Source of the DNA: an uncultured Pseudomonadota bacterium
GTDB taxonomy: Bacteria; Pseudomonadota; Gammaproteobacteria; Enterobacterales; Succinivibrionaceae
Assembly (NCBI GenBank): GCA_900317945.1
Contig: ONIT01000019.1
Span: 1 to 33,014 of the forward strand
Length of the DNA stretch: 33,014 bases
Direction: 5' to 3'
Below the pieces are notes generated by a model, which saw only the letters and a program-made list of their open reading frames with translations, was not told the origin of the DNA and searched no databases. Positions 4,605-32,432 of this stretch are shown piece after piece. The translations under genes and the position numbers were made by a program. Each line of letters starts with the position of its first letter. The first letter of the stretch is position 1.

Positions 4605-4639
4605 TTTCGCAAAAATGAAAAAAATTGAAAATTGCGAAA
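4605..4639 (+). repeat. 35-bp palindrome-ended repeat, copy A
   Basis: TTTCGCA and TGCGAAA arms enclose a 21-base AT-rich core (AAAATGAAAAAAATTG then AAAAT). The arms extend to nine bases in this copy (CATTTCGCA / TGCGAAATG). Its core is identical to copy C. Confidence 0.85.
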
Positions 4640-4791
4640 TGAAAGTGCAGCATTGCTGCCGTATGGCAGCAGAGACCAGATTCGATCGTAACGCCCGGTT
4701 CTGGGCTGTCTGGCTTTGAACTATGGCCGTTTTGTTAACGTGTCCGACCAGTTAAAACAGGCCCTGTCATGGGCTTATGTCAGGCGTTGCG

Positions 4792-4826
4792 TTTCGCATT
4801 TTTGAAAATTATTCGAAATTGCGAAA
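4792..4826 (+). repeat. 35-bp palindrome-ended repeat, copy B
   Basis: It has the same 7-bp arms and the same 21-base core length, with the diverged core TTTTTGAAAATTATTCGAAA plus T. It is closer to copy D than to A, C or E. Confidence 0.85.
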
Positions 4827-4850
4827 TGGAATGTGCAGTTATGGACACTG

Positions 4851-4885
4851 TTTCGCAAAAATGAAAAAAATTGAAAATTGCGAAA
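4851..4885 (+). repeat. 35-bp palindrome-ended repeat, copy C
   Basis: It is identical to copy A across all 35 bases and for several bases beyond (tgaaa). It lies 24 bases after copy B and 38 bases before copy D, so spacing is irregular and not CRISPR-like. Confidence 0.85.
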
Positions 4886-4923
4886 TGAAACAGCAGAAAC
4901 GCTGGCTGCAGGTGGTATATTTG

Positions 4924-4958
4924 TTTCGCATTTTTTTAAATTATTTAAAATTGCGAAA
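4924..4958 (+). repeat. 35-bp palindrome-ended repeat, copy D
   Basis: The core is TTTTTTTAAATTATTTAAAA plus T between the conserved arms. It ends 23 bases before the preferred ATPase start (4982), where a promoter or operator would be expected. The AT-rich core could hold a -10 element. Confidence 0.85.
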
Positions 4959-4981
4959 TGAAAATATGCCAGGATACATCT

Positions 4982-6184
4982 ATGAACATGAAACTGATTA
5001 GCAGGGATTTTTACCTGAGACAGCTTGAGGCTGTAAGGGATATTCCTGATATCAAGGTGATAACCGGCATCCGCCGCTGCGGTAAGTCAAGTCTTATGGA
5101 CGCATTCAGCGCCAGAATTGCAGGCGAAGCTGGCGTCAATGTGGTCAGAATCAATCTCAATCTTAAGCGGAATATTGAGCTGAGACAGCCGGAAAGCCTT
5201 TACGAGTATGTTGAAAGCAGGTACCGCAAAGACCTTAAGAACTATCTTTTCATCGATGAAGTGCAGATGTGTCAGGGTTTTGAGGAGATCATCAGCAGCA
5301 TCCACGAAGAGAGCATATATGACATCTACCTTACCGGCTCCAATGCATTCCTGCTATCGAGCGATTTGGCCACGCTTTTTGGCGGCCGTGTGTTTGAAAT
5401 AAGCATCTTTCCATTCTCGTTCGCGGAATATCTCCAGTATCACGATTCAAGCGATCCGGACGGCTCTTTTGATTCCTACGTCAGGGATGGCGGCATGTCA
5501 GGATCATATCTGTACAGGACTTACGAGAATGCGATGAAATATGTAAAGGCCATATACGAAACGACCATTGCCAAAGACATTATTAAAAAATTCAGAGTGC
5601 AGAATGAGGATATGCTGCTCAGAATAGGCAATTTTCTTATGGACAATGTCGGAAGCCTGACATCAATCAGGAACGTGGCAGCGAAACTCATTTCGGCAGC
5701 TGTCGACACCAACGACAAGACAGCAGGAGCCTATATCCGCTATTTCTGCCAGTCTTTCCTTTTTTATCCTGTAAGGCGATATGACATCAGAGGAAAAAGG
5801 TACCTTGAGGCGGACTGCAAATACTATCTTGCTGATCTCTCGTTCCGTTTCGCCGTGATCGGGAACAAGGATCCTGACTATGGCCATCTTTATGAAAATC
5901 TGGTGGCAATTGAGCTTCTTCGCAGGGGATATGAGGTGTATGTCGGGAAGCTCTACCAGAAAGAGGTTGATTTCGTCGCTCTGAAGCAGGGACAGCGCAT
6001 GTATATCCAGGTGTCAGACAATATCTCCGGGCCGGAGACGCTGAAGAGAGAGCTGGCACCGCTCCTCGCCATCCGCGATGCATACCCGAAGTTCCTGATT
6101 GCCCGCACCCGGCACGATACAGCTGACTGTGACGGAGTGCAGGTCGTCGACATAGCCCGCTGGCTTGCCGGTTCGCAGAAATGA
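4982..6184 (+). CDS. ATP-binding protein, AAA_14 domain + DUF4143
   Basis: This 400-residue P-loop ATPase has Walker A GIRRCGKSS (29-37), Walker B YLFIDEVQ (88-95), a sensor-like TGSNAFLL (118-125), FSFAEYL (146-151), and a C-terminal DUF4143 region. That region includes SFLFYPVRRYDIRGKRYLE, KYYLADLSFRF and ENLVAIELLRRGYEVYVGKL, and ends in a PD-(D/E)xK-like motif KEVDFVA with E328 and D330. Family members are abundant in gut bacteria and archaea, and their role is not established. The ATG at 4982 is preferred because AGGA lies eight bases upstream; an in-frame ATG at 4958 falls on the edge of repeat copy D. The stop codon lies inside repeat copy E, so the repeats bracket the reading frame almost exactly. 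It converges with the truncated AAA-ATPase gene downstream. Cassette mobility or self-regulation through the repeats is my inference. Confidence 0.85.
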   Translation: MNMKLISRDFYLRQLEAVRDIPDIKVITGIRRCGKSSLMDAFSARIAGEAGVNVVRINLNLKRNIELRQPESLYEYVESRYRKDLKNYLFIDEVQMCQGFEEIISSIHEESIYDIYLTGSNAFLLSSDLATLFGGRVFEISIFPFSFAEYLQYHDSSDPDGSFDSYVRDGGMSGSYLYRTYENAMKYVKAIYETTIAKDIIKKFRVQNEDMLLRIGNFLMDNVGSLTSIRNVAAKLISAAVDTNDKTAGAYIRYFCQSFLFYPVRRYDIRGKRYLEADCKYYLADLSFRFAVIGNKDPDYGHLYENLVAIELLRRGYEVYVGKLYQKEVDFVALKQGQRMYIQVSDNISGPETLKRELAPLLAIRDAYPKFLIARTRHDTADCDGVQVVDIARWLAGSQK

Positions 6185-6205
6185 AAAAAATTGAAAATTG
6201 CGAAA
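6171..6205 (+). repeat. 35-bp palindrome-ended repeat, copy E, overlapping the ATPase stop
   Basis: GTTCGCA...TGCGAAA differs from copies A and C by two bases near the left end. The ATPase stop codon (6182-6184) is inside it. It is the only copy downstream of the ATPase gene. Confidence 0.85.
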
Positions 6206-6258: not shown

Positions 6259-7470
6259 TCATTCCGATGTCCCTGAGAGCTGGTCACGGCGGAGCATCTC
6301 CGCTCTGAGCTTTGTCTCAGCCGAACGCCTGATCTCATCGTTCGGAAATCCCAGCATCACACAGCCTGAGCCGGCAGGTATAGGAGACTTCAGTGTCAGG
6401 TACCCGGTCTCGCACATCAGCACATCGTCATTCATGCCGATGAGCGATGGAGGGCTCAGGAAAGCATCTGCCGGAACGGATATATCCTGAGGCAGAGCCC
6501 CGTGCTCCATGGCAAGGTTCTCAATATATCTTCTCAGGAAATCAGGCATGCCTCCGCTTTCGAACCAGTAATTGCCGAACCGAGCATCCTTCCTCAGCAT
6601 GGCCTCTGAAAAGAATCTGCTGACGGACCATGTTGAGAGGACCTTCCGGTCTGCAGCCTGCCCGAAGCAGAAGCCGCCGTATTCGGCCGAGAGCCTCAGA
6701 AGAAGCCTGCCGCGCTCCTCATCAGACACCGGTCCTCCCGGCATTCCTTTCATGAGAGCAGCGGCGAAGCCGATGTGCTCAGCATAGTATTTCCCTGTCT
6801 CCTCCGGGGTGAATCCGGCTATGCAGGCAAGGTCACTCTCATAGCTCACGTCGCGGATCTCCGGCTCATCCGAGAAAACTGCTGTCTCCTTAAGCCTTGT
6901 TACCCCCGTTACGCAGAGAAAGCGCACGCACTCCTGCCCCTTCATAATCTCAAAGAGGCTGCTGATCTCCTTCCTGAATCTCTCATATGACTCAGGATCA
7001 CTCCGGCAGGCACAGAGCTGGCAGTCGTACTCGTCGATGAGGATGACTATCTGCCGGCCGGACTTACGGAGCGCGGAGAAAAGCGATGTGAGGCATTCTC
7101 CCGCGCTCATGCCCTCATTGCAGGCATCAAGATGCAGCCTTTCTGCAAATATATTAAGGACGAGGCAGAGCCTTCTGCGGAATGACTCCAGCGTGAACCC
7201 GAGGTCCAGGAAGCTGAGCATCAGGACAGGGTACTTATCTTCTTTCCACCTGCCGTAAATCCAAGTGTCCCTGAAATACTGCTCCGTTCCGGATTCAAAG
7301 AGCGTCCTGATGGTGTCGAGCATGAGCGACTTCCCGAAGCGCCGGGGCCTTGAGATAAAAAGCCTGCTGCCCTTGCTGATGAGCAGGCTTATCTCACGGG
7401 TCTTGTCGATGTATACGGAGCCGCGGTCCCTGATGTTTCTGAAGCTCTGTCCCTGGGCAATCCTTTTCAT
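6259..7470 (-). CDS. AAA-ATPase-like protein, C-terminally truncated (no PDDEXK_9 domain)
   Basis: This 403-residue protein belongs to the AAA-ATPase_like family. It starts IAQGQSFRNIRDRGSVYIDKT, a typical opening where an FxxIR element is followed by YVDKT. Walker A is RPRRFGKS (41-48), Walker B is VILIDEYD (142-149), and FLCVTGVTRL follows. The region YGGFCFG and the late ETGYLTLKS...LGFPNDEIRRS are also family hallmarks. Full-length members usually continue for more than 100 residues with a PDDEXK_9 nuclease-like domain; this one stops about 20 residues after the FPNxE motif. The missing end points toward the ATPase/35-bp-repeat unit, 54 bases away, so that unit may have replaced the 3' end. 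The start ATG (7468-7470) has agagg seven bases upstream. Its function is unknown; it may be a non-functional remnant. Confidence 0.75.
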   Translation of the reverse strand: MKRIAQGQSFRNIRDRGSVYIDKTREISLLISKGSRLFISRPRRFGKSLMLDTIRTLFESGTEQYFRDTWIYGRWKEDKYPVLMLSFLDLGFTLESFRRRLCLVLNIFAERLHLDACNEGMSAGECLTSLFSALRKSGRQIVILIDEYDCQLCACRSDPESYERFRKEISSLFEIMKGQECVRFLCVTGVTRLKETAVFSDEPEIRDVSYESDLACIAGFTPEETGKYYAEHIGFAAALMKGMPGGPVSDEERGRLLLRLSAEYGGFCFGQAADRKVLSTWSVSRFFSEAMLRKDARFGNYWFESGGMPDFLRRYIENLAMEHGALPQDISVPADAFLSPPSLIGMNDDVLMCETGYLTLKSPIPAGSGCVMLGFPNDEIRRSAETKLRAEMLRRDQLSGTSE

Positions 7471-14859: not shown

Positions 14860-15108
14860 TTTTTCAGATCCCAGACGCCAGCCCTGATTGACAGCCATTC
14901 TGCATGCTCATAAGATGAAAGGCATAAACTTACCTATGAACCTTGGAAAGGCAGCAGCGGCTGCAGTGCGCCGGTGGCCGATGGAGAGCGCTTGTTTCTG
15001 ATGATGCTCATGGCGGAAACAGCAGATTTTGCTGCATTTTCTGCGCTCAGTGAGCGGTTTCAGGATTAAGCCTCCATTGAAAAGAAATTGAAGTGGGGAT
15101 GCAGGCCT

Positions 15109-16065
15109 ATGAGTGATGAGAAGAAGTTTTTTGAGTCCATGGAATCAGACATTCTGAATGCCAATATTCCAGAGGAAGAGAAAAGCAAGCTGATGAAGAA
15201 TCTTCTGAACTTAAAGAAGCAGAAGATCAACCTGATGATCACCGGCGCGACAGGGGTCGGCAAGAGCTCGACGATCAATGCGCTTTTCAACACTGAGAAG
15301 GCTAAAGTCGGCGTAGGCACAGACCCTGAGACCATGGAGATCACCAGATATGAGCTGGACAACCTTGTCCTGTGGGACAGTCCGGGTCTTGGAGATGGCA
15401 AGGAGGCAGACAACCGCCATGCCAAGAACATCATCAATAAGCTCTATGAAAAGGATGAGCACGGAAACCTTCTAATCGATCTGGTGCTTGTGATCCTGGA
15501 CGGCAGCACAAGGGATCTTGGAACGTCCTATGAGCTCATCAACGAGGTGATCATTCCAAATCTTGGTGAGAACAAAGAGGGCAGAATCCTCATAGCCATA
15601 AACCAGGCAGATGCGGCAATGAAGGGCAGGTACTGGGATTCTGACAACAACAGGCCTGAGCCGCCGCTGCAGAAGTTCCTGGATGAAAAGGCTGAATCCG
15701 TCAAGAGAAGAATCAAGGAAGCCACCGGCCTTGAGGTATCCCCGATTTACTATAGCGCGGGCTTTAAGTTTGAGGACATGCCGCAGACCCCGCCGTATAA
15801 CCTCGCAAAGCTTCTCTACTATATCATTGAGCACACTCCCAAGGAAAAACGCCTGGTCTATGCCGAGAACATGAACACTGATAGGAGGATGTGGAAGGAC
15901 AATGATGATTACAAGAATTACCGGAAGAGCATTCTTGCGCAGTTTGGGGAAGTGGTGTCAGATATCGGCTCTGCCATTTACAACGCAGGAAAGACTGTAG
16001 TCGACACAGTATGTGACTGGGGAAGATCTGCGTGGAACACAGTAACATCAATATTCAGCTGGTAA
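15109..16065 (+). CDS. P-loop GTPase 1 of tandem array (YfjP/YeeP-like)
   Basis: This 318-residue TRAFAC-type GTPase has G1 GATGVGKSS (46-54), a switch I threonine in VGVGTDPETM, G3 DSPGLGDG (90-97), G4 NQAD (165-168) and G5 SAG (216-218). An N-terminal helix (EKSKLMKNLLNLKKQKI) precedes the G domain. A C-terminal tail (about 280-318, AIYNAGKTVVDTV then AWNTVTSIFSW) looks amphipathic and could bind membrane. The ATG at 15109 is preferred over a TTG at 15088, because GGGGATGCAGGCCTATGAG is conserved upstream of GTPase 2 as well and contains the SD. It resembles the 50S-binding-like GTPases carried on E. coli CP4 prophages. It is the first of five paralogues in a row. Function is unknown; immunity-type or membrane remodelling roles are inference. 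Confidence 0.82.
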   Translation: MSDEKKFFESMESDILNANIPEEEKSKLMKNLLNLKKQKINLMITGATGVGKSSTINALFNTEKAKVGVGTDPETMEITRYELDNLVLWDSPGLGDGKEADNRHAKNIINKLYEKDEHGNLLIDLVLVILDGSTRDLGTSYELINEVIIPNLGENKEGRILIAINQADAAMKGRYWDSDNNRPEPPLQKFLDEKAESVKRRIKEATGLEVSPIYYSAGFKFEDMPQTPPYNLAKLLYYIIEHTPKEKRLVYAENMNTDRRMWKDNDDYKNYRKSILAQFGEVVSDIGSAIYNAGKTVVDTVCDWGRSAWNTVTSIFSW

Positions 16066-16246
16066 ATTATGTCGTCAGGATGCTATTGCAGCCGCCGCAT
16101 GTGATGAATCTGGAAAGTCCGAAGGCTGCGGCCGTGGAACATTAAGCAGGTCTGTGCAGGCATGACCGCACAGAGATTGTTGGTCTGGTGAAAACACGAT
16201 TTCCGGCACTGTCTTATAAATGAAGCGAGAGCAAGGATGCAGGCCT

Positions 16247-17584
16247 ATGAGTAATGAGAAAAAGTTTTTTGATGCCATGGAATCTGACATTATGAATGCC
16301 AATATTCCTGAGGCTGAGAAAAGCAAGCTGATGAAGAATCTTCTGCAGCTGAAGAATCAGAAGATCAATCTGATGATTACCGGCGCGACAGGCAGCGGCA
16401 AAAGCTCGACCATCAACGCGCTTTTCAACATGGATGTCGCGCAGGTTGGCGTCGGAGTGGATCCTGAGACGATGGACATCGCCGAATATGATTTGGACAA
16501 CCTTGTCCTGTGGGACAGCCCGGGACTTGGCGATGGCAAGGAGGCAGACAACCGCCATGCCAAGAATATTATCAAGAAGCTCAATGAAAGAGATGATAAA
16601 GGAAACCTCCTTATCGATTTGGTGCTTGTAATCCTGGACGGCAGCACCAGGGATCTCGGAACATCATACGAGCTGATTAACCAGGTGATTATCCCCAACC
16701 TTGGCAAGAACAATGAGAACAGGATTCTGGTTGCCATCAATCAGGCTGATGTGGCAATGAAGGGCAAATACTGGGATTATGACAATAACCGCCCGGAGCC
16801 GCCTCTTAAGAAGTTCCTTGATGACAAGGCCGAGTCTGTCAAGAGAAGGATTAAAGAGGGGACAGGCGTTGATGTGGACCCGATTTATTACAGTGCAGGA
16901 TTCAAGGAAGAAGGACAGCCTCAGACCCCTCCGTATAACCTTGCAAAGCTCCTCTACTACATCATTGAGCATACCCCCAAGGAAAAAAGGCTGTCTTTTG
17001 TTGAGAACATCAACCGTGATGAGGAGATGTGGAAGGACAATGATGATCTGAAGGATTACCGAAAGAGCATTGTTCAGCAGTTCGGGGAAACAGTAAAAGA
17101 CTGCGCGACAAAGGGCGCAGACCTTGGCGGAGATATCGGATCTGTTTTTGGAGAAACAGGGAGGGCGGTAGGCAGTGCCCTGGGCGGTCTTGTAGGAGGA
17201 GCAGTAGGTGTAGCAGTGGGAGCTGTCGAATCTGTAGTCTCTTTCTGCACGGGCGGCGGCTGCTACATCACGACCGCGACCTGCGAGGAATACGGCAAGC
17301 CAGATGACTGCTATGAGCTGACCGCCTTCCGGAATTTTCGTGACAGCTGGCTCAGAAAGCAGCCTGACGGAGAGAGGCTCATCGCTCAGTACTACCGGAC
17401 CGCGCCCAGGATAGTGAGGCTGATAAACCGCCAGCCGGACCGCAGTGAAATCTACCGCTCCATCAGGGACAACTACCTTTCAAAGTGTCTCTCATACATC
17501 GAAAGCGGCGACAACGAGAAGTGCAAGGAGCTGTACGTTGAGATGATGGAGCATCTTTATGAGGAGCAGGACAGATGGCACTGA
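16247..17584 (+). CDS. P-loop GTPase 2 with glycine-zipper segment and CFI-box-type C-terminal domain
   Basis: The 445-residue protein is built of three parts. The G domain (1-275) is nearly collinear with GTPase 1, with G1 GATGSGKSS (46-54), G3 DSPGLGDG (90-97) and G4 NQAD (165-168). A glycine/alanine-rich stretch follows (about 290-338: GSALGGLVGGAVGVAVGAV) and looks like a membrane-inserting glycine zipper. The last 107 residues start at C339 (CYITTATCEEYG) and continue with ELTAFRNFRDSWL and ERLIAQYYRTAPRIV. This resembles the CFI-box C-terminal module (C-[FY]-I-x-T-A ... LRxFRD ... YYxxSP) found at the end of many unrelated bacterial proteins. The ATG at 16247 has AAGGA nine bases upstream; the in-frame ATG at 16220 has no SD. 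The stop overlaps the start of GTPase 3 by ten bases, which implies translational coupling. Confidence 0.83.
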   Translation: MSNEKKFFDAMESDIMNANIPEAEKSKLMKNLLQLKNQKINLMITGATGSGKSSTINALFNMDVAQVGVGVDPETMDIAEYDLDNLVLWDSPGLGDGKEADNRHAKNIIKKLNERDDKGNLLIDLVLVILDGSTRDLGTSYELINQVIIPNLGKNNENRILVAINQADVAMKGKYWDYDNNRPEPPLKKFLDDKAESVKRRIKEGTGVDVDPIYYSAGFKEEGQPQTPPYNLAKLLYYIIEHTPKEKRLSFVENINRDEEMWKDNDDLKDYRKSIVQQFGETVKDCATKGADLGGDIGSVFGETGRAVGSALGGLVGGAVGVAVGAVESVVSFCTGGGCYITTATCEEYGKPDDCYELTAFRNFRDSWLRKQPDGERLIAQYYRTAPRIVRLINRQPDRSEIYRSIRDNYLSKCLSYIESGDNEKCKELYVEMMEHLYEEQDRWH

Positions 17585-18267
17585 GATTCAGCACCTATCG
17601 TGCGGATGACATAGACGCCAACCTGAGGAGGCTGCAGGTGCGGCCTCTTGACGTGATGCTCACGGGCGTCACCGGGGCGGGGAAGTCATCGACCATAAAC
17701 GCCTTCTTCCAGGAGCCGATAGCCAAGGTGGGAAGCGGAGTAGACCCTGAGACCATGGAGGCCTCCGGGTATAACCTCAACAAGTTCTTTCGGATCTGGG
17801 ATACGCCGGGCCTTGGCGACGGCGTGGATATAGACCAGATCCATAAGAAGAAAATGGTCGACCTCCTGTGCAAGACCTACAACAGCAACGGGAAGACCTT
17901 TGGGTTTATCGACATGGCGATCATTGTCGTCGAGGGCGCCAACCGTGACATGGGTACAACCTACGCTCTCCTGAATGAGGTCATTGTCCCGAATATTGAG
18001 AGCGACAGGATACTGGTTGTCATCAACCAGGCAGACGTCGCGATGAAAAGCAGGCACTGGGACAAAGGCTCCAGCGAGCCTGACAGCAAGCTTAAAGCCT
18101 TCCTCGAGGAGCAGGCGCTCTCAATCCAGAAAAGAGTGAAGGAGGCGACGGGTGTGGATATCCTGAAGCCGGTCTGCTATTCGGCAGAGTATGACTGGAA
18201 CGTCAAGGGCGTCTTTGACTTCATCATAGACCATATGCCGAAAGAAAGACGTGTTCTGAAAATGTAA
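17575..18267 (+). CDS. P-loop GTPase 3 (short, G domain only)
   Basis: This 230-residue GTPase lacks the N-terminal helix and the C-terminal extension of its neighbours. It has G1 GVTGAGKSS (31-39), switch I VGSGVDPETM, G3 DTPGLGDG, G4 NQAD, and the G5-like CYSAEYDW. The start codon lies inside the end of GTPase 2 (10-base overlap) with GGAG nine bases upstream in the coding sequence, so the two are almost certainly translated as a coupled pair. A degraded copy of the same arrangement follows GTPase 5 (see 20518-20675). It ends with PKERRVLKM, with no membrane segment, so it is probably the soluble partner of GTPase 2. The partner idea is inference from coupling. Confidence 0.83.
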   Translation: MALRFSTYRADDIDANLRRLQVRPLDVMLTGVTGAGKSSTINAFFQEPIAKVGSGVDPETMEASGYNLNKFFRIWDTPGLGDGVDIDQIHKKKMVDLLCKTYNSNGKTFGFIDMAIIVVEGANRDMGTTYALLNEVIVPNIESDRILVVINQADVAMKSRHWDKGSSEPDSKLKAFLEEQALSIQKRVKEATGVDILKPVCYSAEYDWNVKGVFDFIIDHMPKERRVLKM

Positions 18268-18278
18268 GGGGTACCTGA

Positions 18279-19226
18279 ATGAGCAGCAGAATTCTCGATG
18301 ACATTGCAGAGGAAGCCAGAAAAGGCAGTTTTGGCACAGGGGAAGACCAGGAGAGCGTCATAAGGGGCATTGAGCTCCTGAAGAGGCAGAAGCTCAATGT
18401 TGCGTTTGTCGGCGCGACTGGCGTCGGGAAAAGCTCCACCATCAATGCCATTTTCAACATGGATGTCGCGAAGGTGGGCGACTGTACGGATCCAGAGACC
18501 GCGTCAATCCAGAAGTATGAGATTGACAACATGGTCCTCTGGGATACCCCGGGCCTCGGCGACAATCCTGAAAAAGACAGACAGTATGCCGTTGAGATTG
18601 CCGGCCTACTGAAGCGAAAGGACGAGAAGGGCGATCTGCTGATTGATGAGGTCGTTGTCCTGGTTGACGGCTCGAACAGGGACATGAAGACCGCCTACGA
18701 GACAATAGAGCATGTCGTGGCGCCTTACATTGAGGATCCGAAGCGCATCATCATCGCCATCAACCAGTGCGATGTGGCGCTCAAGGGAAGGTTCTGGAAT
18801 AACGACCGCTGCGAGCCTGAGGCGCAGCTCGCTGCCTTCCTTGATCAGAAAGTCACGTCCGTACGGGAGAGGATTGCAGGATCCACCGGCATTGCAACGA
18901 GCCCGATGTATTACTCGGCGCTCCATCATTACAACATCTCGAAGCTGCTTCTTGCCATGATCATTGCCGTGCCTGAGAAAAAGCGTTTCCTGTTCACCGA
19001 CAGTCTGAACAGGAATCCTGATGTCTGGAAGAAGAATGACGAACTGGAAACTTACAACCAGAAGATTCAGCAGGAAGTGAAAGGCTCGCTGTCAAAGGCT
19101 CTCGAGGGGGCGGCGGCCGGCGCTGCGGCAGGCGCATCGATAGGCCGCTTTATTCCGGTAATCGGTCCGGTAGCCGGCGCGATAGCAGGCGCAGCCCTGG
19201 GCTTCCTGGGCGGGCTGCTCGGGTAG
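18279..19226 (+). CDS. P-loop GTPase 4 with C-terminal glycine zipper
   Basis: This 315-residue paralogue is more diverged than 1, 2 and 5. G1 is GATGVGKSS (45-53), switch I is VGDCTDPETA, G3 is DTPGLGDN, G4 is NQCD, and G5-like YYSALHHYN follows. The C-terminal 45 residues are a Gly/Ala-rich stretch (AAAGAAAGASIGRFIPVIGP then AGAIAGAALGFLGGLLG) typical of membrane-inserting glycine-zipper segments. It starts 11 bases after GTPase 3 ends, so it is probably part of the same transcript. The N-terminal sequence MSSRILDDIAEEARKG is unlike the EKKFF start of 1, 2 and 5. Without a database comparison I cannot tell whether it joined the array separately. Confidence 0.82.
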   Translation: MSSRILDDIAEEARKGSFGTGEDQESVIRGIELLKRQKLNVAFVGATGVGKSSTINAIFNMDVAKVGDCTDPETASIQKYEIDNMVLWDTPGLGDNPEKDRQYAVEIAGLLKRKDEKGDLLIDEVVVLVDGSNRDMKTAYETIEHVVAPYIEDPKRIIIAINQCDVALKGRFWNNDRCEPEAQLAAFLDQKVTSVRERIAGSTGIATSPMYYSALHHYNISKLLLAMIIAVPEKKRFLFTDSLNRNPDVWKKNDELETYNQKIQQEVKGSLSKALEGAAAGAAAGASIGRFIPVIGPVAGAIAGAALGFLGGLLG

Positions 19227-19444
19227 GCAATTATGGCCAGCCATGCTTTGACAGAAAAACAGTACGGCAGCGGCCGGCAGTCCGCTGCTCATTCCTTTCT
19301 GCGTCCCGCGGCAGCGTATGGGCAGGTTTAAGTACTGCAGAATGTTTATTAACCATCCCGTTCAGCTGTTCTGCGTCATGCTCTCTTATTTTTCTGCATT
19401 GCAGAATCAAATGAAACGTAAGTGAGGAATCTGGTTCATGCTAG

Positions 19445-20527
19445 ATGAAAAAGTTTTTTGATGCTATGGCATCCAGCATTCTTGACGCTGATATTCCGGA
19501 AGCAGAAAAAAACAAGCTGATGATGACTCTTCTGCACCTTAAAGAGCAGAAAATCAACCTGATGATTACCGGCGCGACCGGGAGCGGCAAAAGCTCAACA
19601 ATCAATGCGCTTCTCGGTACGGAGGAATCGAAAGTCGGCGTCGGCGTGGATCCTGAAACCATGGAGATCAGAAGATATGACCTCGACAATCTTGTGTTAT
19701 GGGACACTCCGGGTCTGGGAGACGGAGCAGAACCTGACGACAGATATGCCAAGAACATCATCGAGAAACTCAATGAAAGGGACGAGAACGGAAACTTTCT
19801 GATAGATCTGGTACTTGTGATCCTGGACGGCTGCATAAGAGATCTTGGAACAGCATATAACCTGATCAATCAGGTGATCATCCCAAGTCTGGGAGAGGAC
19901 AATAAGAACAGGATCCTGATAGCCATAAATCAGGCAGACATAGCCATGAAGGGCAGGCACTGGGACTCTGCCAATAACAGGCCGGAACCGCCCCTTCAGA
20001 AGTTCCTGGATGAGAAAGCTGAATCCGTCACAAGAAGGATCAAGGAGGGGACAGGCCTTGATGTATCACCGGTTTATTACTGCGCCGGCTTCAAATATGA
20101 AGGCAAGCCTCAGTGCCCGTCTTATAACCTTGCAACGCTTCTGTATTACATCATTGAGTCTGTTCCAAAGGAAAAACGGCGTCCGATAACCGAGAATATT
20201 AACTGCTACATTACAACCGCGACCTGTGAGGAATACGGCAAGCCTGATGACTGCTATGAGCTGACTGCCTTCCGGAATTTTCGTGACAGCTGGCTCCGGA
20301 AGCAGCCTGACGGCGAGAGGCTTATAGCGCAGTATTACCGCACTGCGCCCAGAATAGTAAGGCTGATAAACCAGCAGCCGGACCGCAGGGAAATCTACCG
20401 CTCAATAAAAGAGAACTACCTTTCAAAGTGCCTCTCATATATCGAAAACGGTGACAACCAAAGGTGCAAAGATCTCTATGTTGAGATGATGGAGCATCTC
20501 TACAAAGAGCAGGACAGATGGCACTGA
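19445..20527 (+). CDS. P-loop GTPase 5 with CFI-box-type domain, no glycine zipper
   Basis: The 360-residue protein combines a G domain (G1 GATGSGKSS at 43-51, G3 DTPGLGDG, G4 NQAD) with the same 107-residue C-terminal domain as GTPase 2, starting at C254 (CYITTATCEEYG). The roughly 85 residues that carry the glycine zipper in GTPase 2 are absent, so the two domains join directly at ENIN-CYITT. Relative to GTPases 1 and 2, two bases are missing just after the ancestral start: the ATG at 19438, which has a good gaggaa SD, is now out of frame. The frame is read from the ATG at 19445, 15 bases after that SD. Expression may therefore be reduced. Its last codons overlap a relic of a GTPase 3-like gene. 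Confidence 0.8.
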   Translation: MKKFFDAMASSILDADIPEAEKNKLMMTLLHLKEQKINLMITGATGSGKSSTINALLGTEESKVGVGVDPETMEIRRYDLDNLVLWDTPGLGDGAEPDDRYAKNIIEKLNERDENGNFLIDLVLVILDGCIRDLGTAYNLINQVIIPSLGEDNKNRILIAINQADIAMKGRHWDSANNRPEPPLQKFLDEKAESVTRRIKEGTGLDVSPVYYCAGFKYEGKPQCPSYNLATLLYYIIESVPKEKRRPITENINCYITTATCEEYGKPDDCYELTAFRNFRDSWLRKQPDGERLIAQYYRTAPRIVRLINQQPDRREIYRSIKENYLSKCLSYIENGDNQRCKDLYVEMMEHLYKEQDRWH

Positions 20528-28571: not shown

Positions 28572-28723
28572 GATCTGCATCATGTTCAGGATGCGGAGGC
28601 CGGCGCATACTCCTCCTGCAAGCTCAAAAGCGTCCGCTCCGGCATGCTCCCTCTTCATGCAGCATGAAGTCAGGGGGAGGCCCGGCGGTTCCTTCCATAA
28701 TTTCTGAGAGAGGAGAGAAAACC

Positions 28724-30424
28724 ATGAATGACAGCAGCTTTTCGGAAAAGCCCTCTTTTGCGGGCATCCTGTTCCCGGGCTCCGATGAGATGCGCCATCC
28801 CGTCTTTACCGTGAAGTGGGAGATGAGGAAGGAGGGCGCCGGGAGCGGTGACGCGGCTGAGAGCCTCGCGAAGGGCGAGAAGTGCTTTGACGGCAGTGGC
28901 GCGCTCCAGGATTACGAGAGGGCCGCGGAGTGGTTCAGGAAGGCTGCGGATCTGGGCAGCGCCAGGGCCTGCTGCTACCTCGGCGGCATGTACAGTGCCG
29001 GGCTCGGCGTGAGGGAGGATCCGGAGGAGGCCGCCAGATGGTTCGGGAAGGCCGCCGATCTCGGAGACGCTATGGCGCAGAGCAGCCTCGGATACCTGTA
29101 CCTCACCGGACAGGGCGTAAAGAAGGATGAGAAGGCGGCGCTCGGCTGGTACCTGAAGGCCGCGGAGCAGGGCCTTCCGCAGGCAGAGGCCGCAGCAGGC
29201 GGCATGTACGCCCTCGGACTCGGGGTGAGGCAGGATTACGCGGAGTCCGTAAAGTGGTACCTGAAGGCCGCGGCAAAGGGCTACGCTCCCGCGGAGGCCG
29301 TCATGGGCCACAGGTACCGCACCGGGCATGGCGTCACCGCTGATTACGCGGAGTCCGTGAGGTGGTTCAGGAAGGCCGCGGAGCATGGCAGCACTGACGC
29401 GGAGCACTGCCTAGGGGAGATGTACCGTGACGGAAGCGGAGTGAGCCAGGATTACGCTGAGTCGTTTTCCTGGTTCAGTAAGGCCGCGGAGAAGGGCTGG
29501 GCGCCCGCCGAGCACGCGCTCGGGGAGCTGTACCGCTTCGGGCACGGCGTACCTGAGGATCATGAAAAGGCCGCGGAGTGGTTCAGGAAGGCCGCCGAGC
29601 AGGGGCATGACGAGGCGCAGTACTGCCTCGGCGACATGTACTCCCTGGGGCTCGGCGTCCCGTATGACATGAAGGAGGCCGTGAGGTGGTTCCGGAAATC
29701 GGCCGAGCAGGGCTACGTGCCTGCCGAGCACAACCTCGGCGAGCTCCTGTATACCGGGAACGGCGTGAAGCAGGATTACAGCGAGGCGCTTGCCTGGTTC
29801 AGGAAGGCTGCCGCGGAAGGCTACGCGCTTGCCGAGAACAGCCTCGGCTGCATGTACATGGGCGGAGAGGGCGTCAGCCAGGATTTTGCCAAGGCAGCTG
29901 AGCTGTTCCGGAAGGCAAACAGCCATGGCTACGCGAAGGCAGCGCTCAATCTCTCCTCGCTCTACGGCAGCCAGGACTGGCCGGGGCATGATCCCGCGGA
30001 GGCTGACAGATGGCTCCGGACCGCCGCGGAGCAGGGGGTCGCGTACGCGCAGTACAGCCTTGCGGTGATGAGCTACAGGGGCCTTGGCGTGCCGCAGGAT
30101 TACAGTGAGGCCCTGAAATGGGCGCTGAAGGCCGCTGAGCAGGAGTATGCCGATGCGGAGAGCATGATAGGCTATATGTACCGTTCAGGGACCGGCGTCA
30201 GGAAGGATCCCCGGGAGGCGGTGAGATGGCTCAGGAAAGCAGCGGAGCACGGGGAGCCTGCCTCGCAGTACAACCTCGGCATGAGCTGCATGAAGGGAGA
30301 CGGAGTCAGCAAGGATGTCAGGGAAGGGCTCGGCTGGATGATGAAGGCCGCGGCGCGGGGATTTCCGCCGGCAGTGTCATTTATAAGCGGAATCAGCGGC
30401 GGAGCGGAGAACGAGAAGTCCTGA
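28724..30424 (+). CDS. Sel1-repeat protein 1
   Basis: This 566-residue protein has about 14 Sel1-like repeats (TPR-related helical hairpins of 36 residues, pattern AxxxLGxMYxxGxGVxxDYxEAxxWFRKAAEQG) from about residue 45 to the end. The first 30 residues form a separate head (GILFPGSDEM..PVFTVKW) that is conserved in the second copy. No signal peptide is present, so it is probably cytoplasmic or exported by another route. Sel1 proteins act as protein-interaction scaffolds and their partners are not predictable. The ATG at 28724 has gagaggagag in front and agrees with the start of the paralogue; an in-frame ATG at 28664 lacks such support. It lies 208 bases after uvrD and probably has its own promoter. 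Confidence 0.88.
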   Translation: MNDSSFSEKPSFAGILFPGSDEMRHPVFTVKWEMRKEGAGSGDAAESLAKGEKCFDGSGALQDYERAAEWFRKAADLGSARACCYLGGMYSAGLGVREDPEEAARWFGKAADLGDAMAQSSLGYLYLTGQGVKKDEKAALGWYLKAAEQGLPQAEAAAGGMYALGLGVRQDYAESVKWYLKAAAKGYAPAEAVMGHRYRTGHGVTADYAESVRWFRKAAEHGSTDAEHCLGEMYRDGSGVSQDYAESFSWFSKAAEKGWAPAEHALGELYRFGHGVPEDHEKAAEWFRKAAEQGHDEAQYCLGDMYSLGLGVPYDMKEAVRWFRKSAEQGYVPAEHNLGELLYTGNGVKQDYSEALAWFRKAAAEGYALAENSLGCMYMGGEGVSQDFAKAAELFRKANSHGYAKAALNLSSLYGSQDWPGHDPAEADRWLRTAAEQGVAYAQYSLAVMSYRGLGVPQDYSEALKWALKAAEQEYADAESMIGYMYRSGTGVRKDPREAVRWLRKAAEHGEPASQYNLGMSCMKGDGVSKDVREGLGWMMKAAARGFPPAVSFISGISGGAENEKS

Positions 30425-30552
30425 CCTGATCTCAGGATGCGTCTGCGGCCGGCTTCTAGAGAGCATCCTGCAGAGGCCGGCGTAACATGTTTCAGTACCT
30501 TTCAGGAGGGGCCATGAAAGTCTCCTCCTTCCTCACCGGAGTTCCAGTCCGG

Positions 30553-30624
30553 TTCGGTGATGACCGCTGCCGGGTGCTCCCTGCCATCGTAACAAAGCCC
30601 GGGAAAGCCGCCGGCGAGGCCTGA
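30553..30624 (+). pseudogene. Duplicated 3' end of uvrD (24 codons)
   Basis: The frame FGDDRCRVLPAIVTK, then PGKAAGEA and stop, matches the end of UvrD (FDDDRCRVLLAIVTK, then LEKVADEA) at 17 of 23 residues with no indel. Sequence after the stop also matches the uvrD downstream region. It is a scar of a segmental duplication and cannot be expressed as a helicase. Confidence 0.85.
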
Positions 30625-30654
30625 TTTTTACCTTCCAATGACACATACCGCCAT

Positions 30655-30681
30655 CCAGGGCGTTCCCTGGCGCAGTTTTTT
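30655..30681 (+). terminator. Intrinsic terminator (copy of the uvrD terminator)
   Basis: CCAGGG-cgtt-CCCTGG forms a 6-bp stem, then cgcag and TTTTTT (30676-30681). It is the duplicated counterpart of 28547-28571 and would end transcription from sel1 copy 1. Confidence 0.6.
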
Positions 30682-30842
30682 GATCTGTGTCATTTTCGTT
30701 ATGCGGCGGCCGGCGCATACTCCTTCCGCAAGCCAGAAGAGCGGCATGGACGCCCAGGCATGATCCCGCAGCTTATGAAAGCAGAAGGCACGGGGGAGCC
30801 GGGCGTCCCTGCCATTGAGAAATGAGAGAGGAGAAAGAGAGC

Positions 30843-32432
30843 ATGCAGAACAGAAAAGTTCCGGAGCTGCCTTCGTACATGGGAATTCAGCTCCCGGGCA
30901 GCGGTGAGATGTCGAACCCCGTATTTACCGTCAGCTGGCAGGACAGGCGCAGCAGCAGCGGTGATGCTGAGAGGGATTTCGAGCTCGGGAGAAAATACTG
31001 CTATGGGAACGGCGTGCCCCAGGATTATGTGAGGGCCGCAGGGTTTTTACGTAAGGCTGCCGACAAAGGCAGCGCAGGGGCCTGCTTCTACCTTGGCGCA
31101 ATGTACTGCCAGGGAGAGGGCACTGCCCAGGATTATGCAGAGGGCGCAGAATGGTTCAGGAGGGCCTCTGATCTCGGCGATGCGCTGGCTAATTGCAACC
31201 TGGGCTTCCTGTATCTCAACGGAAAGGGGGTACCGCAGGATTACAGCGCCGCGTTCGGCTGGTACATGAAGGCCGCGGAGCAGGGGCTTCCCCAGGCGGA
31301 GACCGCAGTCGGCATCATGTACGCTCTCGGATGGGGAGTGAAGAGGGATGCCGCGGAGGCAGTAAAGTGGTACATGAGGGCCGCGGAGAAGGGCTATGCT
31401 CAAGCAGAGTGCGTCATGGGGCAACGGTATCTTACCGGCGACGGGGTCACTGCTGACTGTGCGGAGGCTGTCAGGTGGTTCCGGAAAGCCGCTGAGCATG
31501 GCAGCACTGACGCTGAGTACTGCCTCGGGGAGATGTACCGTTGCGGAAGCGGCGTGAGGCAGGATTACGCCGCGGCGCTCTCCTGGTACATGAAGGCCGC
31601 GGAGCAGGGGCTTCCCCAGGCGGAGGACGCAGTCGGCAGCATGTACGCTCTCGGAAGTGGAGTGAAGAAGGATGACGCGGAGGCAATAAAGTGGTACATG
31701 AGGGCCGCGGAGAAGGGCTATGCCCACGCAGAGGTCGTCATGGGGCACTGGTACCTCACCGGCAACTGGGGCACTCCTGACTGTGAGGAGGCCGTCAGGT
31801 GGTTCCGGAAAGCAGCGGAGCAGGGCTATGCCGATGCTGAGCTCTGCCTCGGGGCGATGTACAGTTGCGGAAGCGGCGTGAGGCAGGATTACGCCGTGGC
31901 GCTCTCCTGGTACATGAAGGCCGCGGAGCAGGGGCTTGCCCAAGCGGAGGCCGCAGTCGGAGATATGTACGCTCTCGGAAGGGGAGTGAAGAAGGATAGC
32001 GCTGAGGCAGTAAAGTGGTACCTGAAGGCCGCGGAACAGGGCTATGCTCCCGCGGAGTACGCCATGGGGCACCGGTACCGCAGCGGCGACGGGGTCACTG
32101 CTGACTGTGAGGAGGCCGTCAGGTGGTTCCGGAAAGCAGCGGAGCAGGGCTATGCCGATGCTGAGCTCTGCCTCGGGCAGATGTACCGTGACGGAAGAGG
32201 CGTTGCGAAGGATGAAGTCATGGCAGCTGCCTGGCTGAGGAAGGCCGCGGAGAAGGGACTTCCCGTCGCGCAGGTGAGTCTCGCGCTGATGTACTGGAAA
32301 GGACCGTATATCGCGCAGGATGAGGCGGAGGCCGCGGAGGCCGCAAAATGGTTTCTTGCTGCCGCAGAGCAGGGAGTGCCGGTCGCGGAGGGCGTGATAA
32401 GCTATATGTATCTGAACTTCCACTCCTATTAA
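30843..32432 (+). CDS. Sel1-repeat protein 2
   Basis: This 529-residue paralogue of the upstream Sel1 protein has the same head pattern (PSYMGIQLPGSGEMSNPVFTV), no signal peptide and about 14 Sel1 repeats. Its middle consists of three successive blocks of three Sel1 units (PQAETAVGIMYALGWG, ECVMGQRYLTGDG, EYCLGEMYRCGSG and their copies), each 108 residues. It arose by duplication of the uvrD end plus sel1 copy 1, then expanded internally. The ATG at 30843 matches the position of the start in copy 1, with gagaggagaaaga in front; the in-frame ATG at 30822 falls within that SD region. Function is unknown. Confidence 0.87.
   Translation: MQNRKVPELPSYMGIQLPGSGEMSNPVFTVSWQDRRSSSGDAERDFELGRKYCYGNGVPQDYVRAAGFLRKAADKGSAGACFYLGAMYCQGEGTAQDYAEGAEWFRRASDLGDALANCNLGFLYLNGKGVPQDYSAAFGWYMKAAEQGLPQAETAVGIMYALGWGVKRDAAEAVKWYMRAAEKGYAQAECVMGQRYLTGDGVTADCAEAVRWFRKAAEHGSTDAEYCLGEMYRCGSGVRQDYAAALSWYMKAAEQGLPQAEDAVGSMYALGSGVKKDDAEAIKWYMRAAEKGYAHAEVVMGHWYLTGNWGTPDCEEAVRWFRKAAEQGYADAELCLGAMYSCGSGVRQDYAVALSWYMKAAEQGLAQAEAAVGDMYALGRGVKKDSAEAVKWYLKAAEQGYAPAEYAMGHRYRSGDGVTADCEEAVRWFRKAAEQGYADAELCLGQMYRDGRGVAKDEVMAAAWLRKAAEKGLPVAQVSLALMYWKGPYIAQDEAEAAEAAKWFLAAAEQGVPVAEGVISYMYLNFHSY
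31281..32252 (+). repeat. Three 324-bp higher-order repeats inside sel1 copy 2
   Basis: Blocks begin with caggggctt at 31281, 31605 and 31929, exactly 324 bases apart, and each encodes three Sel1 units. Long stretches are nearly identical (gtgaggcaggattacgcc, ctctcctggtacatgaag), which points to recent unequal exchange. Confidence 0.8.

Follow-up and report, generated by a model that had tools for sequence, protein, structure and literature searches.

The window analyzed in this work, i.e., the whole stretch of 33,014 nucleotides corresponding to contig C99 of a 2.89-Mb, 161-contig genome, harbors a DUF4143 ATPase gene surrounded by copies of a 35-bp palindromic repeat. The question raised by this locus concerns the role of these repeats; the original prediction had regarded them either as operators for autoregulation or as boundaries of a mobile ATPase cassette.

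The repeats and the gene they surround

Each repeat is a 35-bp palindrome formed by two 7-nt arms and a 21-nt AT-rich core. The search of the window for the pattern TTTCGCA-N21-TGCGAAA retrieved copies A-D as exact matches; copy E, which overlaps the ATPase stop codon, has the left arm GTTCGCA, differing from TTTCGCA at one position. The idea of five copies sharing the same arms and a core of exactly 21 bases holds for copies A-D and has to be corrected for the imperfect left arm of copy E. Allowing up to three mismatches, the window contains five sites versus a mean of 1.47 in shuffled sequences (maximum 4; at least five in 0/100 shuffles). The features of the locus are as follows:

4605..4639, + strand: copy A, 35-bp palindromic site, core like that of copy E ("3-prime type")
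4792..4826, + strand: copy B, 35-bp palindromic site, core like that of copy D ("promoter type", 31/35)
4851..4885, + strand: copy C, 35-bp palindromic site, identical to copy A
4924..4958, + strand: copy D, predicted conserved primary operator, beginning 64 nt before the probable start codon
4988..6184, + strand: AAA_14-wHTH-DUF4143 ATPase (PDC-S01 candidate), probable start at 4988, longest open reading frame from 4958
5066..5089, + strand: Walker A motif GIRRCGKS, residues 27-34, from the family alignment
5606..5830, + strand: winged helix-turn-helix (wHTH), residues 207-281, as modelled by AlphaFold (mean pLDDT 89.4)
5669..5671, + strand: codon 228 (Arg), start of helix 2, tracking arm base 6
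5711..5719, + strand: codons 242-244 (Asn-Asp-Lys), start of the recognition helix, tracking arm bases 3, 5 and 4
6171..6205, + strand: copy E, 35-bp palindromic site over the stop codon, with one mismatch

These coordinates agree with the view that four copies lie upstream of the gene and that one (copy E, 6171-6205) covers its stop codon. Copies A and C are indeed identical (35/35), and copy E agrees with them at 33/35 positions; copies B and D, which had been thought to share a different core, are similar (31/35) but not identical. The two core types alternate along the window, copies A, C and E exhibiting one type and copies B and D the other. The spacing of copies A-D is irregular, as had been noticed (gaps of 152, 24 and 38 nt), and these gaps, together with the two core types, rule out a CRISPR array.

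The search for the sites in the own genome and in related ones, which had been proposed as a check, revealed that they cluster at the gene. In the whole genome, allowing up to one mismatch, exactly five sites were found, corresponding to copies A-E (5/5 at the gene; reversed-pattern control, 0), and only copies A-D were retrieved when any core of 6-36 nt was allowed. In 15 related genomes, 19 of the 21 exact TTTCSCA-N21-TGSGAAA sites lie at the ATPase gene and two elsewhere (reversed control, 2). The repeats are genuine and specific to the family of this ATPase gene. A REP/RAYT element was also considered and discarded, since it requires a dispersed repeat and the five sites found here are all at one gene. 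No exact match to copy A was found in the search of viral contigs. In the genomes of 33 relatives the subfamily is mostly single-copy, further matches being mostly at about 41% or less.

As for the gene, its open reading frame matches AAA_14 (104.6 bits; cut-off 27) and DUF4143 (63.8 bits; cut-off 28.1). The listed start is at 4958; in the alignment with the relatives the family start codon falls at 4988, and judging from this alignment the listed start is probably too early. A start at 4988 places copy D at -64, i.e., at the conserved position. Within the Walker A motif, G27, R29, R30, G32, K33 and S34 are invariant in 59 sequences. An AlphaFold model built with 59 sequences (pLDDT 89.4, pTM 0.90) was used instead of an earlier one from five sequences, which was poor (pLDDT 63); the modelled wHTH comprises helices at residues 207-219, 227-236 and 243-255, followed by a wing, and residues 228 and 242-244 sit at the starts of two of its helices.

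According to the passages of PMC12988326 dealing with it, PDC-S01 is an ATPase fused to a PD-(D/E)XK superfamily domain and ranks fourth in frequency among the defence families of prokaryotes, experimental validation being pending for most such candidates. PADLOC matches the window protein to PDLC04787, i.e., PDC-S01 (6.6e-140), and the protein has the same AAA_14 plus DUF4143 build; it can be considered a PDC-S01 phage-defence candidate, whose defence role is a prediction. The promoter site and the residue code reported below are added here to the description of PDC-S01 given in those passages (PMC12988326). A difference concerns the PD-(D/E)XK motif: D328 is conserved in 86/86 members of the window subfamily, residue 341, where D/E is expected, is Gln in 86/86, and Lys343 occurs in 0/86. 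Gln341 and the absence of Lys343 make nuclease activity doubtful, and the nuclease domain may be inactive. An active PD-(D/E)XK nuclease would carry an intact D...(D/E)xK motif, which the subfamily lacks; this bears on catalysis and not on PDC-S01 membership.

Sites, promoters and recognition helices in the relatives

Among the sampled genomes of the host family, the nearest relative (L052, 63%) also harbors a similar site upstream of the gene and another one over the stop codon. The scan of public genomes provided 80 loci (the best 80 of 536 confirmed) and that of viral contigs three; excluding L102 (no upstream DNA) and L163 (a fragment) left 81 loci for the count of exact arms, and these, plus the window and L052-L055, represent a set of 86 loci from several phyla at about 49% identity or more. 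The taxa among the best 80 of 536 loci include Lachnospiraceae, Erysipelotrichaceae, Fibrobacter, Treponema, Collinsella, Bacteroidales, and others; L052/L089, L091/L161 and L103/L104 are near-identical rows and hence not independent.

Exact 7-nt arms with a core of exactly 21 nt were found within 300 nt upstream of the gene in 59/81 loci versus 1.6 after letter shuffling; neighbouring odd core lengths are also raised, since the same palindrome is counted there again through its longer or inner parts. Single-letter shuffles were used for this count and for that of promoters, and dinucleotide-preserving ones for the generic repeat scores reported further on. When at most one mismatch was accepted in the arms and the core could measure 20-22 nt, a site was found before the gene in 81/86 loci (76 with N21, four with N22 and one with N20), and by the same rule 5/86 have no upstream site. 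The primary site is typically near -65. In several sites one arm is imperfect, and the arms vary but stay complementary (TTTCGCA, TTTCCCA, TTCCTCA, TTCCGAA, TTACGCA, CTTTCAA, and more).

When the family was aligned on the site, a -35-like element (TTGATT/TTGACA) was found inside the core and a TATAAT-like one a few bases past the right arm, followed downstream by a GAGGTG-like ribosome site and then by the start codon. A match to at least five of the six bases of TATAAT lies 3-16 nt after the site in 63/72 cases versus 17.5 in shuffled leaders, and promoter pairs with at least nine matching bases occur in 53/72 versus 11.9; of the 63 promoter-like pairs scoring at least 8, 54 have a 17-nt spacing. 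In the window, no consensus promoter pair overlaps copy D, i.e., the window promoter is not canonical, which at this single locus counts against reading the site as a promoter operator.

This organization bears on the possibility that the palindromes work as RNA hairpins, forming either an attenuator or an RNA repeat array like those of type III toxin-antitoxin systems. It is true that the arms remain complementary while changing and that an ATPase having a nuclease-fold domain is preceded by repeat arrays. However, in the family the primary site lies 5' of the -10-like element, that is, before the transcription start and outside the transcript, a position arguing against a role as RNA; moreover, the core is variable and AT-rich, with no conserved pairing by inspection, and the base-residue co-variation described below indicates protein recognition. 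A function at the RNA level appears to us exceedingly improbable.

The co-variation concerns the arm bases and the residues of the wHTH. Residue 243 predicts arm base 5 in 79/79 sites whose arms agree (G-Asp 40, C-His 36, T-Asn 3), and among all the alignment columns it is the only perfect one for this base, the next column having a normalised mutual information of 0.30. Read on the opposite strand, the pairs are Asp-C, His-G and Asn-A, which are chemically sensible. The counts for the other positions are T-Asn 69, C-Thr 5, A-Ser 4, T-Ser 1 and C-Asp 1 for base 3 and residue 242; C-Lys 68, C-Arg 8, T-Val 3, G-Thr 1 and A-Asn 1 for base 4 and residue 244; and C-Arg 70, A-Asn 8, C-His 1 and G-Asn 1 for base 6 and residue 228. 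Two identical rows with unequal arms fall outside the 79, and for the code counts the register of two rows was moved by one base. The automatic rule took another palindrome in L158, whose site was set by hand for bases 3, 4 and 6; this locus entered the 79/79 count with the mis-picked palindrome, base 5 being C either way. When the wHTH columns were left out of the tree, at least 11 changes of base 5 were counted; of the nine independent G/C pairs on the best tree, taken irrespective of branch support, only two lie on starred branches, so that the number of evolutionarily independent cases is far below 79.

Five loci at about 49% identity or more lie outside the code set (L215 and L247-L250). 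All four bases fit in L247, L249 (with a core of 20) and L250; in L248, which has another spacing, bases 4 and 5 fit and base 3 misses, and in L215, a relative from a phage record (50%), base 5 fits, its imperfect left arm having been read by eye. The site geometry and the code are not consistently present in 16 further paralogs that share about 31-38% identity with the window protein, and no clear 35-bp site was found in the plasmid relatives L214 and L216 (35-38% identity).

The finding that site bases and recognition-helix residues change together suggests that the ATPase binds the sites surrounding its gene. We consider it highly probable that the palindromes are operators read by the wHTH of this ATPase, that the primary copy lies on the promoter, and that the outcome is negative autoregulation. 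This is the best-supported reading of the sequences, with co-variation arguing for binding and position for repression, and the first of the two roles originally proposed, that of operators for autoregulation, gains strong support from the arm/helix co-variation, the overlap with the promoter in the family and the clustering of the sites at the gene. The conserved palindrome that an autorepressor should have at its own promoter is present (81/86 loci, with promoter elements), and the domain reading it would be the modelled wHTH, as the 79/79 co-variation leads us to infer. According to this model, two subunits related by symmetry would each recognize one of the 7-nt arms, which lie 28 bp apart; the tip residues of the recognition helix would contact arm base 3 (residue 242), base 5 (residue 243) and base 4 (residue 244), and residue 228 would contact base 6. 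The ATPase sitting on the primary copy (copy D in the window) over the promoter would exclude RNA polymerase, thus establishing negative autoregulation, and some signal, perhaps infection, might lift the repression. Autoregulation need not be the sole job of the ATPase.

A related possibility is that binding of the sites by the ATPase serves chiefly a different function, for instance within an initiator-like or self-recognition complex, as the combination of AAA+ and wHTH domains, similar to that of Orc1 and DnaA, might suggest, repression being a by-product. The nearest solved folds do include DNA-bound Orc1, RFC and DnaA, multiple sites lie in AT-rich DNA at the own gene, and there are paralogs with iteron-like arrays having 21-34-bp periods. 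However, these folds match weakly on the whole (TM about 0.3), a single site covering a promoter is found in most loci, and about two dozen paralogs per chromosome are hardly what one would expect of initiators; hence, we regard this as quite improbable. The sequence search of solved structures gave weak matches only, with DnaA first (E 0.09). The origin sites of the archaeal Orc1/Cdc6 lie in AT-rich DNA. This protein (PDB 2v1u) shares with the window ATPase an AAA+ ATPase followed by a winged helix, but the fold match is weak (TMq 0.32) and the window ATPase adds a PD-(D/E)XK-like domain and the promoter site; the resemblance of the model to Orc1/RFC/DnaA is here taken as a shared AAA+/wHTH layout only.

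Additional copies and the question of mobility

If the palindromes are operators, the other upstream copies and that at the stop codon might represent auxiliary operators (involved in cooperative binding, looping or titration) or the leftovers of local duplication. A downstream copy within 300 nt of the stop codon occurs in 20/77 loci, mostly right at the stop codon, and at least two upstream copies in 6/81 loci, the window being the richest with four. The alternation of the cores of copies A-E may reflect local duplication. In L052/L089, about 1.1 kb upstream of the intact gene, there is a relic of the 3-prime end of a second ATPase gene, including the site at its stop codon:

L052, 300-480, reverse strand, and L089, near 1430: sequence relic of an ATPase 3-prime end

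The second role originally proposed, i.e., that the copies are the ends of a mobile ATPase cassette, serving recombination rather than regulation, has some points in its favor: copies close to both gene ends in 20/77 loci, a family spanning phyla with relatives on plasmids and in phage records, the relic in L052/L089, and the distribution of the A/C/E and B/D cores, which looks as if units composed of a 5-prime site, the gene and a 3-prime site had been duplicated and their genes lost. Nevertheless, the promoter copy is alone in most loci, the 5-prime copy lies within the promoter, no transposase or recombinase is found inside, and the relic can be explained by ordinary duplication. Copies at both ends with target duplication, as expected of a mobile cassette or transposon, were not found: the downstream copy is limited to 20/77 loci and no flanking duplication was detected in the 20 two-ended loci examined. 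We conclude that the idea of cassette boundaries finds no support here and is very improbable. The left-flank DNA of the window had no match in the one same-genus genome searched (G001, 77% complete).

Similar systems and the DUF4143 paralogs

In toxin-antitoxin and restriction-modification systems, a potentially harmful gene represses itself via palindromic operators. There, the regulator is an antitoxin or a C protein, whereas in the present case a single large AAA+ protein would be involved. In the part of PMC12255303 concerning it, RptR is described as a DNA-binding repressor of a defence island acting via repeats in the promoter of that island; both that system and the window feature repeats at the promoter of a defence gene or defence candidate, repression being predicted in the latter (PMC12255303). 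RptR, as presented there, is a separate protein of small size and its palindrome measures 6 bp, whereas here the effector-like ATPase itself would carry the reading head (PMC12255303). In the open-licence PMC literature searched, we found no description of this operator. An Acinetobacter plasmid relative (35% identity) adjoins Qat defence genes, a neighbourhood in line with a putative defence role.

The co-variation of site and helix across bacteria suggests that a widespread predicted phage-defence protein shuts off its own gene. The code of four residues and four bases represents a direct bench handle for binding assays, reporters and inducer searches, and it offers an explanation for how many paralogs might coexist in one genome without cross-regulation. 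The own genome contains 26 DUF4143 matches, 24 of which are above the cut-off, and most of these genes have their own, different short repeats just upstream. A 12-mer occurring at least three times within 400 nt upstream was found in 13/22 DUF4143 genes of this genome versus 10/92 control ORFs, and the generic repeat score was at the shuffle floor in 15/18 near-full-length DUF4143 genes versus 9/85 controls. In the sample of the phylum, the score was at the floor in 9/25 DUF4143 genes versus 2/10 control ORFs, a mixed result that makes private repeats not convincing beyond the own genome. One might speculate on a general rule, according to which each AAA_14/DUF4143 paralog owns a promoter site or array that no other paralog reads, insulating at least 20 copies in one genome, and the DNA-bound ATPase is a resting sensor, freed and possibly armed once the DNA or the complex is perturbed by infection; at present we hold this rule to be rather unlikely.

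As for the paralogs, those of the direct-repeat type (C149, C124, C45, C54 and C108) retain the D...ExK motif in the L031-L050 set, in most of those of the palindrome type E is replaced by Q and K is absent, and the motif was not matched in C64, C146, C125 and C41. In L044 (4889-5360), a TTTAAGCGAGA array is flanked by a DUF4143 gene on one side and by a gene for a class I tRNA synthetase on the other. Two genes encoding SLFN_AlbA_2 plus HATPase_c_4 proteins (L034:4157 and L045:8626) have their own promoter repeats (L034:3967-4120 and L045:8213-8600, respectively), which suggests that private promoter repeats extend beyond DUF4143 genes. One 12-mer is also repeated four times upstream of the gene for an archaeal-type ATPase (ATPase_2, PF01637) at L049:1182-2594.

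Other genes of the window are worth mentioning. A second DUF4143 stretch without the P-loop part is located near the contig start (400-1038), and the convergent neighbour of the ATPase gene (6259-7470) encodes a protein of another ATPase family, AAA-ATPase_like (PF09820). A series of GTPase genes spans positions 15088-20527; the first two match MMR_HSR1, IIGP and AIG1, the next ones appear similar by eye, and the series is possibly an expanded dynamin/IRG-like family. Finally, a tandem pair of large Sel1-like repeat proteins, recognized by eye from the translation, is encoded at 28664-32432.
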